From NCBI RefSeq assembly GCF_963678245.1, contig NZ_OY782770.1, positions 496,001 to 560,000 of the forward strand: a DNA stretch of 64,000 nucleotides, read 5' to 3'. Made by a program: the position numbers and the translations under genes. The notes under the pieces are model-generated. The model saw only the letters and a program-made list of their open reading frames with translations, ran no database searches and was not told the origin of the DNA. This document shows, one piece after another, positions 11,651 through 20,450 of this stretch; position 1 is the first letter of the stretch; each line of letters begins with the position of its first letter. The stretch is from an uncultured Sunxiuqinia sp. (GTDB taxonomy: Bacteria > Bacteroidota > Bacteroidia > Bacteroidales > Prolixibacteraceae).

Positions 11651-11800
11651 TTTAAACTAAAAACACAACGAAACCCAAAATATGAGCATAACCAACTTCA
11701 ATCCGAAATCGAAAAACCCAATAAAGAAATTGACCGGATGGTTTACGAGTTGTATGGTTTGACTGATGAAGAAGTTAAAATTGTGGAGGAAAGCATGTAA
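11651..11800 (+). pseudogene. C-terminal stub of a restriction-modification (type IIG or I methylase-like) gene
   Basis: The frame ending at 11800 reads from about 11693 QLQSEIEKPNKEIDRMVYEL and then YGLTDEEVKIVEESM. From memory this is the characteristic C-terminus of Eco57I-type or type I DNA methylase/specificity proteins in Bacteroidota. Nothing of the methylase or nuclease domains remains upstream, and the frame has no in-frame ATG near its beginning. Its stop overlaps the next gene's start as TAATG, so that gene was once translationally coupled to it. An ATG in another frame at 11682 yields only 26 codons; it could be the original gene start fused out of frame by an internal deletion (inference). 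Confidence 0.6.
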
Positions 11801-12729
11801 TGTGTTCTTTTATAGAAAATATATATACAACTTGGGAAGAATTTGCCAAAGAAAATCCAGTTTCAAATCTTGAGAATAAACGATTTATTTATCGAGGTCA
11901 AACGAATAGTTTTTTAAATGAAAAATTTCTCGAATGGGAAATAGTATCTTCTTTCAATAGATATTATTCAAAACTTCATTACAGATTTTCTCAGTTTATT
12001 AGCCAACAAATTGCGTTTATGGATTCTACATATTCTGAATATGAATTTGTAAAGAATAGTAACATTTTAGATTCAAATATTATTTCAAAAATATATTTCC
12101 TGCAACACTATGGAGTACCTACCTGCTTTATTGATTTTACGTATCATCCATTAATTGCTTTATACTTTTCAATTTCATCATTAAAGGGACAATCTGGTGG
12201 GAGAAATACTATTGATGGTTTTCCTAAATATTATCATGAAAACTATTGTTTTACAGTAATTCGAATTGATACAAATAAGCTTCAAACAATAATTGGTATA
12301 AAAGACTTAGAACATTTTCAGCTTGACTTATTTTTAAAATATGATTCTTATTGTATTGATGTTGACCGTAATATTTATGCTCAGATTGCCTTAGACTTAT
12401 TTCCACTACAATCCACTAATAACTCAAATAATTTCAATCTTCTTAAGCAAAATTCTTGTTTTCTTTTATTTGACAATGCATCTTGTAATTCAATTTCGTT
12501 TGAAAAATTTATTCACTTATTTATTGAAAAACACCATATTCAAATTAATGAACCTTTTATAACAAAATATCACATAAAATATAATACTGCTTTTAAGCCA
12601 AGGAGGAGCAGACAACCGGATTATACAAGTCTTTTTAAATTCTTGAAACAAAATAATATCTCAGGGAAAACTTTATTTAACGATATACAAGGATTAAAAT
12701 ATGACTTTAACTTTTTTCATCAGGAATAA
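11800..12729 (+). CDS. FRG-domain protein
   Basis: 309-aa protein carrying the FRG domain, named after a conserved Phe-Arg-Gly motif. Here it appears as FIYRGQTNS (residues about 29-37), followed by the second signature LQHYGVPTCFIDFTYHPLIALYFSI (about 106-130, split here: LQHYGVPTCFID, then HPLIALYFSI). FRG proteins have no firmly defined activity but are frequent in phage-defence and restriction islands. The gene is markedly more AT-rich than its neighbours, pointing to horizontal transfer. It starts at TAATG on the restriction-modification stub, and RhuM follows after 2 bases. Confidence 0.85.
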   Translation: MCSFIENIYTTWEEFAKENPVSNLENKRFIYRGQTNSFLNEKFLEWEIVSSFNRYYSKLHYRFSQFISQQIAFMDSTYSEYEFVKNSNILDSNIISKIYFLQHYGVPTCFIDFTYHPLIALYFSISSLKGQSGGRNTIDGFPKYYHENYCFTVIRIDTNKLQTIIGIKDLEHFQLDLFLKYDSYCIDVDRNIYAQIALDLFPLQSTNNSNNFNLLKQNSCFLLFDNASCNSISFEKFIHLFIEKHHIQINEPFITKYHIKYNTAFKPRRSRQPDYTSLFKFLKQNNISGKTLFNDIQGLKYDFNFFHQE

Positions 12730-12731
12730 TT

Positions 12732-13748
12732 ATGGCAGATTCAGAAATATTACTTTACCAAACCGAAGACGGACAAACCAAAATAGATGTCCGGCTGGAA
12801 GATGAAACAGTTTGGCTTTCGCAGGTTCAAATGGCAGAACTTTTTCAGACAACAAAACAAAATATTAGCCTGCATATAAAAAACATTCTTGAGGAAGGTG
12901 AATTGCAGGATAATTCAACTGTCAAGGATTACTTGACAGTTCAACCCGAGGGCAAACGCGAGGTTCGGCGTAATTTAAAGATTTACAACCTCGATGTAAT
13001 TATTTCGGTTGGTTACCGTGTAAAATCGCACCGTGGCACACAATTTCGTATTTGGGCTACTACTCAACTTCGCGAATACTTGATAAAAGGGTTTGTGTTG
13101 AACGATGAGCGCTTAAAAGAAACCGGGCACACCAACAAATATTTTGATGAACTGCTAGAAAGAATTCGTGATATTCGCAGTTCGGAGAAAATTTTCTACG
13201 CAAAAATCAAAGATATTTATACAACTGCCATTGATTACGACCCTGCTACAGAAGAGAGTCAATTGTTTTTCAAATCAGTGCAAAACAAAATGCATTGGGC
13301 AATTCATGGACACACTGCATCGGAAATCATCTACAAACGAGTAGATTCAGAAAAACAAAATATGGGATTAACAACATGGGGAAATGCTCCTCATGGAAAA
13401 ATTAGGAAAACCGATGTTTCAATTGCAAAAAACTACCTGACCAAAGATGAATTAAAAGACCTGAACCTGATTGTTGACCAGTATCTTTCATTTGCAGAGT
13501 TGCAAGCTCGGAACCAGAAACCAATGTACATGAAAGACTGGATTAGTAAACTCAACGATTTCATGACATTGAACGACAAGGAAATTTTGGAACATGCCGG
13601 GACAATTTCGGCGAAAATGGCAAAAGAACTGGCAGTATCCGAATATGAGAAATACCGTAAAACCCGGATTGAGATTGAAGATGTGCAAGAGATGAAAGAG
13701 CTTGAAGAGGGATTAAAAAAACTGGAAAACAAAAAGAAAAAAAAGTAA
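12732..13748 (+). CDS. RhuM-family protein
   Basis: 338-aa full-length member of the RhuM (virulence) family. The N-terminus ILLYQTEDGQTKIDVRLEDE, the predicted DNA-binding-like segment WLSQVQMAELFQTTKQNISLH, and RNLKIYNLDVIISVGYRVKS with RGTQFRIWAT are family signatures. The middle and C-terminal part (residues about 170-270) includes HWAIHGHTASEII and a Fic/Doc-like helical region. The last residues are a Lys-rich tail. The molecular function is not established; these genes are often found inside restriction-modification loci, which agrees with the stub upstream. It is cotranscribed with the FRG gene. Confidence 0.9.
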   Translation: MADSEILLYQTEDGQTKIDVRLEDETVWLSQVQMAELFQTTKQNISLHIKNILEEGELQDNSTVKDYLTVQPEGKREVRRNLKIYNLDVIISVGYRVKSHRGTQFRIWATTQLREYLIKGFVLNDERLKETGHTNKYFDELLERIRDIRSSEKIFYAKIKDIYTTAIDYDPATEESQLFFKSVQNKMHWAIHGHTASEIIYKRVDSEKQNMGLTTWGNAPHGKIRKTDVSIAKNYLTKDELKDLNLIVDQYLSFAELQARNQKPMYMKDWISKLNDFMTLNDKEILEHAGTISAKMAKELAVSEYEKYRKTRIEIEDVQEMKELEEGLKKLENKKKKK

Positions 13749-15665: not shown

Positions 15666-17090
15666 CTAATCTACTTTATCGTGCAAATAGGAATTGTTGT
15701 CGCGTAACTTTGTGTTGTCATCATCATCGGGTGATAAAGAAAAACGCGACAATTTTTCTTCAAACTTCTTTTTCATACTCTGGATGTTAACCTTCTTGCG
15801 TCGGTAAGCCGGAATATTTTCCAGTTCATCAACTTCCTCATCACTCGAAATAGAATAATCCAATTTTACCGAGTATTCTTTCTCCGGATCGACCGATGAA
15901 CTTGATTTTCCGTACAACTCATCAAACTCATCTCTCGGCTTATTTACCTCAAATTCTATCGATTGCTGATTCTGACCAGCAACAGACCGACTTGGCTCTC
16001 CAGTGAATGGAACTCGAGCCTCCGGCTTAGGTCGAGGTGGTGCTGTTGGCTGAGGATCATCAACCAATGTATGGTACGTTTTTTCCACTTTTCGGGCAGC
16101 CATCATTTCCGGTATACTACTAACGCTAAAGCCTGTAGCAATTACGGTTACCGAAATTTCGTTACCCAGCGCCTCATCAACACCATTACCCCAAATCAGG
16201 TCGGCATCGTGCCCGGCCTTAGCCTGGATATAGTCGGTAATCTCTCCAATCTCGTCCATCGTTACTTCTTCGCCCCCCGATGTAATATTGAGCAAGATAT
16301 TTCGAGCACCGTTAATATCGTTATTATTCAGCAAGGGCGAGTTCATCGCTTCTTCAACGGCTTTGAGTGCACGATTCTCTCCTTCAGCCTTTGATGATCC
16401 CATGATGGCTACGCCGCTGCTTCGCATAACAGTTTCCACGTCGGCAAAGTCCACATTAATATAACCCGGTACCGTAATAATCTCGGCAATACCTTTCGCA
16501 GCAGTAGTTAACACATTATCAGCCTTTGCAAATGCCTCCGAGATTTTAAAATCACCATACATTTCACGAATTCTTTCGTTGTTGATCACCAACAGCGAAT
16601 CAACGTGAGTCTCCATTTCGGCAATACCATCAATGGCCTGCTTGATACGGCGGCGGCCTTCATTGCGAAATGGAAGCGTAACAATGCCGACAGTTAAAAT
16701 ATCAAGCTCGCGGCATGCTTCTGCAATTACGGGAGCCGCTCCTGTCCCGGTTCCACCACCCATTCCGGCAGTAATAAACACCATCTTGGTATTCGACTGC
16801 AATGTTCTTTTGACATCTTCAATATTTTCGATGGCTGCTTCACGCCCAATCTGAGGTTTATTTCCGGCTCCCCGTCCTTCTGTCAGTGAAGCTCCGAGTT
16901 GTATTTTTAGTGGCACCGGGCTATTTCTCAAAGCCTGCTCATCCGTATTGCAGAGCATAAAACCCACATCTTTTATTCCTTGCTCATACATGTGGTTGAC
17001 TGCGTTTCCTCCGCCGCCGCCAACTCCAACCACTTTAATAATCGCATCGGAAGATTTATCTTGATCGAAATTTACCATATCGCTTGACAT
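15666..17090 (-). CDS. ftsZ: Cell division GTPase FtsZ, canonical copy (ftsZ-A)
   Basis: Tubulin-like GTPase that forms the Z ring. Glycine loop T1 is GVGGGGGNAVNHM, T3 is LTEGRGAGNKP, the tubulin signature is GGGTGTGAAP and the T7 synergy loop is INVDFADVETVM with Asn, Asp and Asp intact. The globular domain ends near residue 325. A variable linker (about 330-415) leads to a conserved C-terminal peptide ENIPAYRRKKV (about 424-434), the part expected to bind FtsA. A 40-residue extension follows, ending NNSYLHDKVD, which I recall as typical of Bacteroidota FtsZ. The length is 474 aa. It lies 17 bases after a second ftsZ gene and is the more orthodox copy. Confidence 0.97.
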   Translation of the reverse strand: MSSDMVNFDQDKSSDAIIKVVGVGGGGGNAVNHMYEQGIKDVGFMLCNTDEQALRNSPVPLKIQLGASLTEGRGAGNKPQIGREAAIENIEDVKRTLQSNTKMVFITAGMGGGTGTGAAPVIAEACRELDILTVGIVTLPFRNEGRRRIKQAIDGIAEMETHVDSLLVINNERIREMYGDFKISEAFAKADNVLTTAAKGIAEIITVPGYINVDFADVETVMRSSGVAIMGSSKAEGENRALKAVEEAMNSPLLNNNDINGARNILLNITSGGEEVTMDEIGEITDYIQAKAGHDADLIWGNGVDEALGNEISVTVIATGFSVSSIPEMMAARKVEKTYHTLVDDPQPTAPPRPKPEARVPFTGEPSRSVAGQNQQSIEFEVNKPRDEFDELYGKSSSSVDPEKEYSVKLDYSISSDEEVDELENIPAYRRKKVNIQSMKKKFEEKLSRFSLSPDDDDNTKLRDNNSYLHDKVD

Positions 17091-17107: not shown

Positions 17108-18373
17108 TTAATTATCCATTTCTTCATCCTGATCGTCGAAAAAACGATTAAACTGGCGCTGAAACCAGCTATCCGTGTTTCCATTTTCCCGAGCTTCTTC
17201 AGAGACCAACTCGCGCTTGTTTTGCTTTTTTGGATTACGCGAGTGGTTTGTTTTCTTGCCCACTTGCTGTGGTTGCTTTTTCATTTCATCTTCAAAAATC
17301 CTGGAGAAATCATCTTCCTCATCTTCCAGGTTAATATCTACCGGTTGATCTTCAAGAAGAACTTCCTCTTTGGGCTCTTCCTTTTGAAGCAGGCTATTGG
17401 GATTTCTATCAAATCGAGTCGCAATTATGGTTACGCTGACTTTCGTCCCAAGTCGCTTGTCCAAACTGTTACCCCAAATAATATTCGCATCCTGACCTGC
17501 TTTTTCCTGCAAGAATTCAATGATATCTCCAATTTCACCCATTCGGATTTCCTCTTCTCCCGAAGTAATATTCAGCAAAATATCTTTTGTTCCTTTGATG
17601 TCGTTACTATCCAACAAGGGCGACTCCAGTGCTTTGAGTACAGCATCCATCGCTCTCCCATCACCTTCAGAAATACCAGTTCCCATGATGAATACCTCAC
17701 TCTTCGCCATCACAGTTTCAACGTCTGCGTAATCAATATTGATATTTCCGTGCAGTGTAATAATTTCAGCAACGCCTTTTACCGCGGTTCCCAAAATACT
17801 GTCAGCCTTTTTGAAAGCTTGTGAAGCAGGCAAATCGCCATAAATTTTATGCAGTTTTTCATTACTAATCACCAGCAAACTATCTACGTGCTCCTTGAGC
17901 TTGTCAACACCTTCCAGTGCTTGTTGAAACCGACGCTTCCCCTCGGCTGGCGACGGGATGGTAACGACTGCGATAGTCAGAATATCCAGTTCGCGCGCTA
18001 ATCCGGCAATTACCGGAGTAGCACCCGTTCCTGTTCCGCCCCCCATTCCCGCCGTAATAAACAGCATCTTGGTGGTTCCATCCAGCACGGTTCGAATATC
18101 TTCGAGATTTTCAATGGCAGCCTGCTCGCCCTGAGCTGGTAAATTACCTGCTCCGCGACCTTCAGTAAGGGTTACCCCTAATTGAATTTTCACGGGCACA
18201 GCACTAACCCTCAATGCCTGAGCATCGGTATTACAAATCATAAAATCAACACCTGTTATGCCTTCTTCGAGCATGTGGTTAACTGCATTACAGCCACCAC
18301 CGCCTACTCCAATCACCTTGATGATTGATGACTTTGTCTCTTGAAAACCGAAGTTTAATATGTCCTCACTCAT
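17108..18373 (-). CDS. Second FtsZ paralogue with FtsA-like C-terminal tail (ftsZ-B)
   Basis: 421-aa FtsZ paralogue between ftsA and the canonical ftsZ. GTPase elements are intact: GVGGGGCNAVNHM, LTEGRGAGNLP, GGGTGTGATP, and T7 loop INIDYADVETVM with Asn and both Asp present, so it is probably active. It differs where the canonical copy has PFRNEG (here PSPAEG). The linker (about 330-400) is acidic and then basic. The conserved IPAYxRR peptide is absent. Instead the last 19 residues, WFQRQFNRFFDDQDEEMDN, form a predicted amphipathic helix and match the FtsA C-terminus (RQxxxFFD, DQD, EM). The codons also match, so the tail was probably copied from or shared with ftsA. Direct membrane binding is inferred. 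Confidence 0.92.
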   Translation of the reverse strand: MSEDILNFGFQETKSSIIKVIGVGGGGCNAVNHMLEEGITGVDFMICNTDAQALRVSAVPVKIQLGVTLTEGRGAGNLPAQGEQAAIENLEDIRTVLDGTTKMLFITAGMGGGTGTGATPVIAGLARELDILTIAVVTIPSPAEGKRRFQQALEGVDKLKEHVDSLLVISNEKLHKIYGDLPASQAFKKADSILGTAVKGVAEIITLHGNINIDYADVETVMAKSEVFIMGTGISEGDGRAMDAVLKALESPLLDSNDIKGTKDILLNITSGEEEIRMGEIGDIIEFLQEKAGQDANIIWGNSLDKRLGTKVSVTIIATRFDRNPNSLLQKEEPKEEVLLEDQPVDINLEDEEDDFSRIFEDEMKKQPQQVGKKTNHSRNPKKQNKRELVSEEARENGNTDSWFQRQFNRFFDDQDEEMDN

Positions 18374-18393: not shown

Positions 18394-19704
18394 CTAAAAC
18401 ATTTCCGTATCCTGATCTTCGTCGAAGAACAGCGTAACCTGGCGAGCTACCTCATTTTTCATTTTTGATAAAAAGCCAGGTTGTATTGAGCGCGTTTTCT
18501 TTGCCTTTCCAGTTTTGAAAGAGTTTTTGGTCACTTCCGAATCCTCTGATTCATTAAGAGCGATGAGCAGCAAACCAAGTACAGTTGCATTTCGAGGATC
18601 TTCCAGCTCCTTCCACCGCTCACCAGCTTTCATCCGTGGAATGCCTTTACGAACATCCAAGCCGGTTTGAAACTTGATTAGCTGGCTGAGGTTAGGCATC
18701 AAAGCACAACCACCTGTAAGTACAATTCCTGCTCCTACTTTATCCATATAGCCCGATTTTTCAATTTGGAAGAAAAAAGCTTCTATAATTTCCTCCATCC
18801 GGGCCTGGATGATAAAAGCCAGGTTTTTAAATGAAATTTCTTTGGGTTCCCATCCGGAAATCCCGGGTATGGTAACCACTTTATCTTCAGGGGCAAAATC
18901 ACCCATCGCCTCTCCAAACTGAACTTTAAGCGACTCGGCCTGACGGGCTAAAATTGTGCATCCCTCTTTAATGTCGTGTGTAATCACGTTTCCTCCAAAT
19001 GGAATAAGCGATGAGTAGCACAAGACACCATCGTGGTAAATTGCCATTTTTGTGGTACCCCCGCCAATGTCTAGCATAACTACACCGGCTTCCTTCTCGT
19101 CTTCAGAAAGCAGTATTTCGGACGAAGCCAAGGGGTCGATCACCGTTTTTCGGACGGTGATTCCAGCTCGCTCGAAACAACGCTGTAGGTTATCTTCATA
19201 CAATTGGGGGGCAACCAAAAGTTTGAAGTCCGCTTCCATTCTCTCACCCGTCATTCCAACCGGATTTAGAATACCTGCCTCATTATCTATTGTAAACAGC
19301 TGCGGCGACGTATGATAAATCTTATACGCTTCAGGTATTTCAACATTTTTCACCTGCTGAAACATGGCATCAACATCTTTCTCTGAAACAATCCGGCTTT
19401 CGTTAATGTATTGTTCGCCACGCTTGGTAAATGTTTTTAGTTGTTGCCCAACAATATTGACATACACTTCCTCAATGTCTCCTTCAAACATATCTTCAGC
19501 TTGACGAATAGCCTCATGAATGGAAGAAAAAGCCTCGTCGATATTCAACACCACGCCGCGCTTCACGCCCATGGAACAAGATTTTCCGTATCCCAGAATT
19601 TCGATCGTTCCTTCTCTATCCTTGCGACCAGCGACCACAACAACTTTGGTTGTACCGACGTCAACTGCTGCTACTATTTTTTCGCTTTTGCCCATAAGCT
19701 TCAT
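18394..19704 (-). CDS. ftsA: Cell division protein FtsA, actin-like membrane tether
   Basis: Actin-fold ATPase that anchors FtsZ to the membrane. I start it at 19704, where ATGA overlaps the ftsQ stop by 4 bases. A longer upstream frame exists but runs inside ftsQ. Phosphate 1 is VAAVDVGTTKVVVVAG, the FtsA-specific 1C/SHS2 insert follows (residues about 80-165), phosphate 2 is VVMLDIGGGTTKMAIY and the adenosine motif is GIVLTGGCALMPNL. The C-terminus, GFLSKMKNEVARQVTLFFDE with DQDTEMF after it, is the amphipathic membrane-targeting helix plus an acidic end. That same end reappears on the next gene, ftsZ-B. The length is 436 aa. Confidence 0.97.
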   Translation of the reverse strand: MKLMGKSEKIVAAVDVGTTKVVVVAGRKDREGTIEILGYGKSCSMGVKRGVVLNIDEAFSSIHEAIRQAEDMFEGDIEEVYVNIVGQQLKTFTKRGEQYINESRIVSEKDVDAMFQQVKNVEIPEAYKIYHTSPQLFTIDNEAGILNPVGMTGERMEADFKLLVAPQLYEDNLQRCFERAGITVRKTVIDPLASSEILLSEDEKEAGVVMLDIGGGTTKMAIYHDGVLCYSSLIPFGGNVITHDIKEGCTILARQAESLKVQFGEAMGDFAPEDKVVTIPGISGWEPKEISFKNLAFIIQARMEEIIEAFFFQIEKSGYMDKVGAGIVLTGGCALMPNLSQLIKFQTGLDVRKGIPRMKAGERWKELEDPRNATVLGLLLIALNESEDSEVTKNSFKTGKAKKTRSIQPGFLSKMKNEVARQVTLFFDEDQDTEMF

Positions 19705-20450
19705 TTTTTTGTACACACCACCTGATTTGTATATTTCAAGTTGATTTTTGAATAGTATTCCCATCCTACCTTCGAAAATGCCTGATCGTATAAAGCTCTC
19801 AGGTTTCGAAATTTTATTTGAAAATCAACAGTTTTCCCCAGCTCAATAATTTGATCGCCCACCAAAGGCGCCATGATCACATCTCCCTGTCTGCTGACCT
19901 GCAATTGCTCAATCTGAGCGTTCCAGAATTCGTCGCTCCGAATAAACTTTACCATGGGGAGTAACTCTTCTCTGGCATATTTCTCACTAACATCGCCGTT
20001 TACCAAAAGTACCTGGGTAGCCACTCCCTGGTTGGCAGGAATCCGAACCCCCTCATCATCCAGATAAAAGTTTTCCTTTTCATTAATCACCCGCAAAATT
20101 GGCTGTCGCTGCTTAACTTCAACCATTAGCCGACCTTTAAAATCCATGTCCTCGCCAGTCACTCTACGGTAAATTTCAATATTTTTTATGGCCGTCACTT
20201 TTCGAAGTTCGGCCTCCAACTTCTCCGTATTAATGCTATCCAGGCGGGTATTTAGCAAGTTCCCTCCTGCCTTTTTAACAAGAGCTGCAATCTCCTCTTC
20301 GTCAATAAACCGCGGGGAGTCCTTGTCAATCACTACCACAATCTCGTCGCAATGAACTTTCGCCAACTTGCTGGTTGAAAATGCCGTGGTGACTACTACC
20401 AAAGCAACCAACAAGCAAAAAAACGCTATTTTTACAATTGACTTAAACAT
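19701..20450 (-). CDS. ftsQ: Cell division protein FtsQ (DivIB-like)
   Basis: 249-aa bitopic inner-membrane protein of the divisome. One transmembrane helix (about residues 5-25) is followed by a periplasmic POTRA-like region (about 35-105: IVVVIDKDSPRFIDEEEIAA, LRKVTAIKNIEIYRR) and a beta domain with KQRQPILRVINEKENFYLDD and GVRIP, a typical FtsQ stretch. It overlaps murC by 8 bases and ftsA by 4, so it is part of the tightly packed dcw operon. Confidence 0.93.
   Translation of the reverse strand: MFKSIVKIAFFCLLVALVVVTTAFSTSKLAKVHCDEIVVVIDKDSPRFIDEEEIAALVKKAGGNLLNTRLDSINTEKLEAELRKVTAIKNIEIYRRVTGEDMDFKGRLMVEVKQRQPILRVINEKENFYLDDEGVRIPANQGVATQVLLVNGDVSEKYAREELLPMVKFIRSDEFWNAQIEQLQVSRQGDVIMAPLVGDQIIELGKTVDFQIKFRNLRALYDQAFSKVGWEYYSKINLKYTNQVVCTKK

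Follow-up and report, generated by a model that had tools for sequence, protein, structure and literature searches.

A CTP-less second FtsZ with an FtsA-like C-terminal tail in the dcw operon of Prolixibacteraceae

The dcw operon of an uncultured Sunxiuqinia sp. encodes two FtsZ proteins, one of which (FtsZ-A) carries the usual C-terminal peptide (CTP) to which FtsA and other partners bind, whereas the other (FtsZ-B) lacks it and ends in an aromatic tail. A CTP-less second FtsZ with an aromatic tail is a trait of the whole family Prolixibacteraceae. We put it at slightly better than an even chance, judging from sequence, that FtsZ-B is a membrane-proximal partner of FtsZ-A, with which it would co-assemble while binding the inner membrane by its tail.

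The ftsA, ftsZ-B and ftsZ-A genes

The window—the whole stretch of 64,000 nucleotides that was analysed—had been described in a first-pass annotation as carrying two ftsZ genes in tandem at the dcw operon, and this is confirmed. The ftsZ-B gene lies between ftsA and ftsZ-A, all three are on the minus strand, and the intergenic gaps are 20 bases (ftsA/ftsZ-B) and 17 bases (ftsZ-B/ftsZ-A). The frames upstream of ftsA are presumably ftsQ, murC, murG and ftsW. Features are given in window coordinates.

15666..17090, minus strand: ftsZ-A, canonical FtsZ (TIGR00065, 372.7 bits)
15795..15821, minus strand: FtsZ-A CTP, ENIPAYRRK (CTP pattern in FtsZ-A at 123 of 131 loci)
17108..18373, minus strand: ftsZ-B, CTP-less FtsZ paralogue of 421 amino acids (FtsZ profile matches; in a clade with Prolixibacteraceae orthologues, support 100/99)
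17111..17134, minus strand: acidic cap DQDEEMDN, residues 414–421 (mean net charge −4.4)
17135..17167, minus strand: hydrophobic segment of the tail, WFQRQFNRFFD, residues 403–413, candidate membrane segment (W in 129 of 131)
17168..17377, minus strand: C-terminal linker, residues 333–402, basic just before the tail (mean net charge +3.5)
17723..17740, minus strand: T7 loop NIDYAD, residues 212–217 (N[IV]D[YF][AT]D in 130 of 131 orthologues)
18023..18043, minus strand: GTP-binding signature GGGTGTG, residues 111–117 (GGGTG[TS]G in 131 of 131 orthologues)
18394..19764, minus strand: ftsA (TIGR01174, 332.9 bits; cut-off 175.85)
18397..18444, minus strand: FtsA C-terminal end, RQVTLFFDEDQDTEMF (alignment with the FtsZ-B tail)

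FtsZ-B matches TIGR00065 with 353.6 bits, above the cut-off of 295.2, and also PF00091 and PF12327; the TIGR00065 match stops at residue 332, and the CTP lies outside the model match. The GTPase and T7 motifs are kept, as first described, and the single T7-loop exception among the orthologues is L155 (NIDFSD). An IPAYxRR-type CTP is indeed absent from the window's FtsZ-B. The genome as a whole has exactly two FtsZ matches, FtsZ-A and FtsZ-B, and no SepF match in a search that was positive in 7 of 14 control genomes.

After its CTP, FtsZ-A continues to the end NNSYLHDKVD, which resembles the ends of other Bacteroidota FtsZs. The FtsZ-A CTP is about 50 residues from the C-terminus, and a second conserved end, NNS[FY]LHD.VD, is seen in many single-copy Bacteroidota FtsZs. 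On the plus strand of the window, near the dcw cluster, an FRG-domain protein (11800–12726) adjoins a RhuM-family protein (12732–13745); the pair corresponds to the PADLOC candidates PDC-S15 and PDC-S05.

Conservation and composition of the FtsZ-B tail

An FtsZ-B match is present in 135 of 140 Prolixibacteraceae genomes. The five genomes that lack one (G423, G322, G372, G374 and G392; 68–95% complete) contain no FtsZ of any kind in the search, so assembly gaps are likely there. The loci read number 131, one per genome, with the matching genomes G301, G305, G339 and G344 excluded from the count. Orthologues of FtsZ-B keep the tail, 129 of the 131 having W[FLIVM]; the strict CTP pattern occurs in none of the 131, and a looser version of it flags three (L240, L256 and L260; PSFTRR, PSYQKK). 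Most FtsZ-A proteins without the CTP pattern are incomplete: at L134, L230, L266 and L004 the gene extends past the locus boundary, FtsZ-A is missing from the L218 contig, L259 stops early near a contig end, and L220 is interrupted by a run of N, with the CTP on its second piece. The degenerate, unrecognisable CTP of L154 (genome G395) is counted as a real loss.

L154 is also one of the two loci at which FtsZ-B is without the W tail; at the other, L284, a run of N takes the place of the C-terminal end. The L154 protein ends GGGMFDGIKKIFGKLVKAPEDQNFK, the W motif being replaced by MFDGIKKIFGKLVK with a hydrophobic moment of 0.79, the highest of 24 genus rows. It is as if, in this one 84% complete genome, tethering had shifted to FtsZ-B, whose end is classically amphipathic.

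Over 23 genera, identity in the core is 69% for FtsZ-B, 75% for FtsZ-A and 43% for FtsA without its tail, and FtsZ-B is thus well conserved; FtsZ-A and FtsZ-B of the same genome are 60% identical (23 genera). Each forms one clade in the tree, with support of 100/99 (FtsZ-B) and 100/94 (FtsZ-A). Two further FtsZ-like genes were seen in the family, both on contigs other than that of the dcw cluster: a third FtsZ of 374 residues (L292, G409:C150) and an FtsZ-like match with one internal stop (L295, G422:C2).

The window's FtsZ-B ends in WFQRQFNRFFDDQDEEMDN. Anchored on the tryptophan, the 129 tails have the consensus D[NS]WFx[RK][QN]F and, after a spacer of two to four residues, [FL]F, followed by the acidic cap, with W in all 129, F(+1) in 117, R/K(+3) in 124 and F(+5) in 120. 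The 37 residues before the tail have a mean net charge of +3.5 (range −8 to +11), and the cap, taken from W+10 to the C-terminus, one of −4.4. Among nine aligned orthologues W403, F408 and F412 are invariant, and no invariant residue lies between Q330 and W403. The spacer between the hydrophobic halves is two residues in 84 of the 129, three in 16 (all in genus g3), four in 27 (g191, g193, g199, g204 and part of g3) and of other length in two, and insertions of one or two residues inside the hydrophobic segment are found in 43. Because spacing within the segment varies, helical phase is not kept.

In the window's own tail the proposed amphipathic arrangement, with W and four F on one face, is borne out: an ideal helix places W403, F404, F408, F411 and F412 inside one arc of 180 degrees, though Q407 shares it. 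The best 11-residue hydrophobic moment of this tail is 0.78. Moments were taken over the last 30 residues for one genome per each of 24 genus labels (the window's genome and g1 being the same genus), with a hydrophobicity scale and a D factor. The mean for the FtsZ-B tail is 0.58 (mean z 1.56; p<0.05 in 8 of 24 rows), close to that for the FtsA tail (0.54; z 1.29; 7 of 24), and the values are 0.32 for the FtsZ-B linker (z −0.32; 3 of 24) and 0.37 for the last 30 residues of FtsZ-A (z −0.22; 0 of 24). As a control, 41 other C-termini of the window give 0.46 (z 0.52; 5 of 41). The FtsZ-B tail is as amphipathic as the FtsA end, and it exceeds ordinary C-termini by a moderate margin. Residues 403–413 form a helix with pLDDT below 50 in an AlphaFold2 model built from 9 sequences with a mean pLDDT of 60.3.

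Likeness to the FtsA end and possible roles of the tail

The C-terminal end of FtsA is a membrane-targeting sequence. Alignment of RQFNRFFD-DQDEEM in the window's FtsZ-B with RQVTLFFDEDQDTEM in its FtsA gives 10 identities among 14 aligned residues with one gap, in line with the match of about 10 positions that the first-pass annotation had reported. The two tails have a local score of 43, whereas 2000 shuffles average 20.8 (SD 4.5) and none of them reached that value; the window's FtsA tail ranks fourth of 129 against this FtsZ-B tail, three other FtsA tails of the family being equal or better. The FtsA motif was also checked in close relatives and is kept in the congeners L112–L115. In distant genera such as g3 the FtsA tail is without RQ..FFD and FtsZ-B still has WF.[RK][QN]F; the exact identities therefore belong to the Sunxiuqinia group.

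The more general likeness extends through the family. The FtsA end in these Bacteroidales, like the FtsZ-B tail, has a basic stretch, a short hydrophobic segment and an acidic end, although it belongs to another protein and is less strictly conserved (best-10-column identity 0.36 vs 0.53) and less aromatic. Mean charges before and after the segment are +3.5/−4.4 for FtsZ-B and +3.7/−4.1 for FtsA, in windows that differ slightly, vs −1.7 for the FtsZ-A linker. Likeness of the FtsZ-B tail to the FtsA end has a mean z of 2.84 and exceeds 2 in 15 of 23 genera. The corresponding values for the FtsZ-A CTP region are 0.31 and 3 of 23, and derivation of the tail from a decayed CTP is not favoured.

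FtsA and FtsZ-B tails of the same genome also resemble each other more than mismatched ones do (mean score 27.7 vs 23.8 with other genera, over 23 genera; permutation p 0.0002 and 0.0008). Same-clade pairs (27.9) are about as high as own pairs, other-clade pairs scoring 23.3, and permutation by eight clade blocks, picked after the tree was known, gives p 0.008. Against shuffled FtsA tails p<0.05 is reached in 11 of 23 genera, and in six control pairings, which involve linkers of FtsA and ends or linkers of FtsZ-A, p ranges from 0.17 to 0.74. When the FtsA tails were shuffled five times, z ran from −0.5 to 2.6, and since three of these shuffles still had p<0.05, composition accounts for part of the covariation. 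Covariation is also seen between the two proteins in their last 10 residues (p 0.0012).

In the mechanism that we propose, FtsZ-B would be a GTPase-competent paralogue, to judge by its motifs, apparently kept under selection across the Prolixibacteraceae. FtsZ-A, which keeps the CTP, would be tethered via FtsA; FtsZ-B would co-polymerise with FtsZ-A, and its tail (basic linker, WF.[RK][QN]F..[FL]F, acidic cap) would bind the inner membrane directly. The Z-ring would thereby gain a second, FtsA-independent anchor, as is reported for chloroplast FtsZ1 beside FtsZ2. Such direct tethering is supported by retention in the dcw cluster family-wide, the missing CTP, the near-universal W tail and intact catalytic motifs, and further by the lack of a SepF match in the genome, the AlphaFold2 helix at 403–413 and a moment like that of FtsA tails. 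It is weakened by the variable spacing, the moderate amphipathicity (8 of 24 rows vs 5 of 41 controls) and the pLDDT below 50, and by the covariation with FtsA being partly compositional, with same-clade pairs as high as own pairs. It is weakened too because strict aromatics at W, F(+1) and F(+5) would be expected of a docking peptide more than of a helix that binds lipid.

The tail may thus instead be a new peptide ligand, WF.[RK][QN]F docking on FtsA or another divisome or membrane protein and so tethering or regulating FtsZ-B without lipid. Strict W and F identities together with insertions in 43 of 129 tails make this a serious rival, a real possibility but one that we would not expect to prevail. 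The W/F/[RK]/F identities are near-invariant over 129 genomes and exceed the identity of the FtsA tail; the varying spacer would break a single helix, and similar ends, W[FIL]-x-x-x-[FI]-x-x-[LF]F, occur on extra FtsZs of families f32, f70 and f106. On the other side, the FtsA end has a matching charge layout, the tail is unlike the CTP region, and in the sole genome from which the W motif is gone the end is unrelated yet amphipathic. This charge layout, the likeness to FtsA and the amphipathic replacement tail of L154 speak for binding to lipid.

Alternatively, FtsZ-B could be a regulatory or structural subunit of a co-polymer, for example diluting CTPs in mixed filaments, with a tail that is incidental or a stability signal. 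The combination of an absent CTP with intact GTPase motifs would suit such a subunit, and the covariation of the last 10 residues with FtsA could mark a shared C-terminal recognition signal, but W403, F408 and F412 stand invariant beyond an interval that has no invariant residue, and CTP-less extras in other families bear comparable tails; we consider this role unlikely.

Agreement at the codon level had also been noted. The base count holds in the window, where 33 of 42 aligned bases (45 counting the gap) are identical and codon usage alone predicts 28.9 (p 0.024), and where 9 of 10 codons are identical and 5.7 are predicted (p 0.021), but family-wide there is no excess: over 128 genomes, 355 codons are identical vs 354.1 expected, among 696 residue identities with M and W excluded. 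Genus g1 has 38 of 48 identical codons vs 26.2 expected, in genomes that are close relatives and not independent. Copying of the tail from ftsA by recombination or gene conversion, to which the window and g1 figures would point, is unsupported family-wide and highly improbable, given the lack of a codon excess over the 128 genomes and own-genome tail pairs no closer than same-clade pairs. What stands of an FtsA-type tail is a conserved segment at the place of the missing CTP, with the same charge layout and with matched tails alike; common descent at the DNA level is not supported. The likeness probably reflects convergence on the FtsA end or a constraint common to both tails, and we do not read it as a copied module.

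Extra FtsZs in other Bacteroidales and known membrane-binding FtsZs

In an order-wide sample, 27 of 295 genomes have at least two FtsZ matches, the CTP-less kind lying beside ftsA in 16 and not in 11. The 16 genomes fall in seven family codes (f1, f16, f23, f32, f70, f85 and f106) and have one or two extras between ftsA and the CTP-bearing FtsZ; six families besides f1 (Prolixibacteraceae) therefore have CTP-less extras at the same position. None of the 16 extras outside f1 (12 genomes) has the strict CTP pattern, and the last FtsZ copy has it in 11 of 12, the twelfth having FPAYER. At the C-terminus these extras have a short run of hydrophobic residues, in most cases together with an acidic cap (GWIQTTFDSLFDE, FGWIGSLFDEKDDELK and NNWLKRKIGTLFSDEE are examples); in f85 the run is about 30 residues before the C-terminus, and the ends in f32, f70 and f106 are similar to that of FtsZ-B. 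Their moments are not above those of control C-termini (2 of 16 at p<0.05; mean z 0.81).

Among the other 11 genomes, the matches in G058, G084, G149 and G278 are apparently genes broken by the ends of contigs, and the second copy in G250, on a contig of 4.3 kb, includes a CTP-like NIPAFVR. The second matches in G081, G185, G274 and G151 are of about 190 residues with 34–39% identity, and G193 has a second FtsZ without an FtsZ-B-type tail. A divergent pair of neighbouring FtsZ-like genes, with 28–32% identity to FtsZ-A, was observed at L290 (G229:C20). A CTP-less FtsZ in an eighth family code, f60 (L304, G799:C1:2293281-2294234), is in a 519-residue frame ending LTFVEKVKKRMEQFAFDITQDDDNK and lies about 147 kb from the ftsA-linked FtsZ of G799. 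At L293 (2325–3815, G378:C602) a lone FtsZ core (PF00091, 3.7e-37; FtsZ_C, 1.7e-14) is followed at the C-terminus by a CAP12/TIR-like domain (PF10137, 3.5e-5; 24.2 bits, just below the cut-off of 24.7); there is no adjacent ftsA-like frame and no PADLOC match, and the gene is possibly a defence or NADase fusion.

A draw of 392 genomes covered the phylum. In the same class outside the order one genome, G584, has two matches, the second a 238-residue frame with 35% identity; outside the class at least two matches occur in 20 genomes, 17 of them of family code f136, and no FtsZ-B-type tail is present in the six examined (G490, G505, G513, G583, G747 and G751). The f136 extras L305, L306, L308, L310 and L312 have two CTP-like motifs each (ATPAYVRRN and IIPAFRRR in L305).

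In the tree, FtsZ-B of the Prolixibacteraceae falls in a different clade from the extras of other families, but a single clade of all extras is not rejected (AU p 0.287, or 0.32 once the first copies in three-FtsZ families are removed). A quick tree of 118 rows placed three long rows (one L285 row, L287 and L288) beside FtsZ-B; the final trees use 91 of the 118 rows, with five long rows dropped (both of L285, L287, L288 and the L283 FtsZ-B) and near-duplicates thinned. Tentatively, and with rather less than even confidence, we suggest that a dual or triple-FtsZ divisome may be recurrent in the Bacteroidales, with one CTP-bearing FtsZ and one or two with FtsA-like membrane tails, so that the ring would be tethered both by FtsA and by FtsZ itself. 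It would have arisen several times, or once with many losses, with FtsA retained, and in at least one lineage, that of G395, the self-tethering FtsZ may have assumed the task while the CTP of FtsZ-A was being lost.

In plastids FtsZ2 retains the CTP and FtsZ1 is without it, and FtsA is not known from plastids. Engineered FtsZ fusions with a membrane-targeting sequence (FtsZ-mts) make rings in liposomes; like FtsZ-B, with its putative membrane tail, they have an FtsZ core, a linker and a C-terminal membrane helix in place of the CTP, but they are artificial whereas FtsZ-B is natural and conserved.

The first-pass annotation had supposed that a native self-tethering FtsZ would be new, and this fails: the principle is not new, because native membrane-binding FtsZs are already reported in PMC12583498. 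Three are described there, namely OdinFtsZ1 of Odinarchaeota, which binds liposomes through an N-terminal amphipathic helix, chloroplast FtsZ1, whose C-terminus is involved in membrane binding (Liu et al. 2022 and An et al. 2024, as cited in PMC12583498), and a Mycoplasma FtsZ that has membrane-targeting sequences (Dutta et al. 2025, as cited in PMC12583498). Chloroplast FtsZ1 and FtsZ2 are alike to the present pair in being two FtsZs of which one is reported to bind membrane C-terminally, but they act in a plastid, whereas in the Prolixibacteraceae a bacterial dcw operon contains both genes together with ftsA. Odinarchaeota FtsZ1 and FtsZ2 are likewise a dual system with one direct membrane helix and the other protein tethered by its C-terminus to an adaptor; they differ in that the helix is N-terminal, the host archaeal, the adaptor SepF and not FtsA, and the paralogues distant. 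Mycoplasma FtsZ is reported to be a bacterial FtsZ with its own membrane-binding end, whereas FtsZ-B is a paralogue that accompanies a normal FtsZ and FtsA.

According to PMC9871819, a second ftsZ gene occurs in few bacteria and is then located outside the dcw cluster, and to this description the Prolixibacteraceae are a clear exception. Among open-licence PMC papers we found no report of a bacterial dcw-encoded pair in which the CTP is swapped for an FtsA-like tail. The question at stake is why bacteria tether FtsZ by adaptors (FtsA, SepF, ZipA) and not by a membrane-binding FtsZ. Sunxiuqinia indica is a named strain with this protein, its FtsZ-B (locus L032) being 96% identical to that of the window, and a natural one-operon pair of a CTP-bearing FtsZ and an FtsZ with a membrane-like tail makes the adaptor question testable by deletions and tail swaps.
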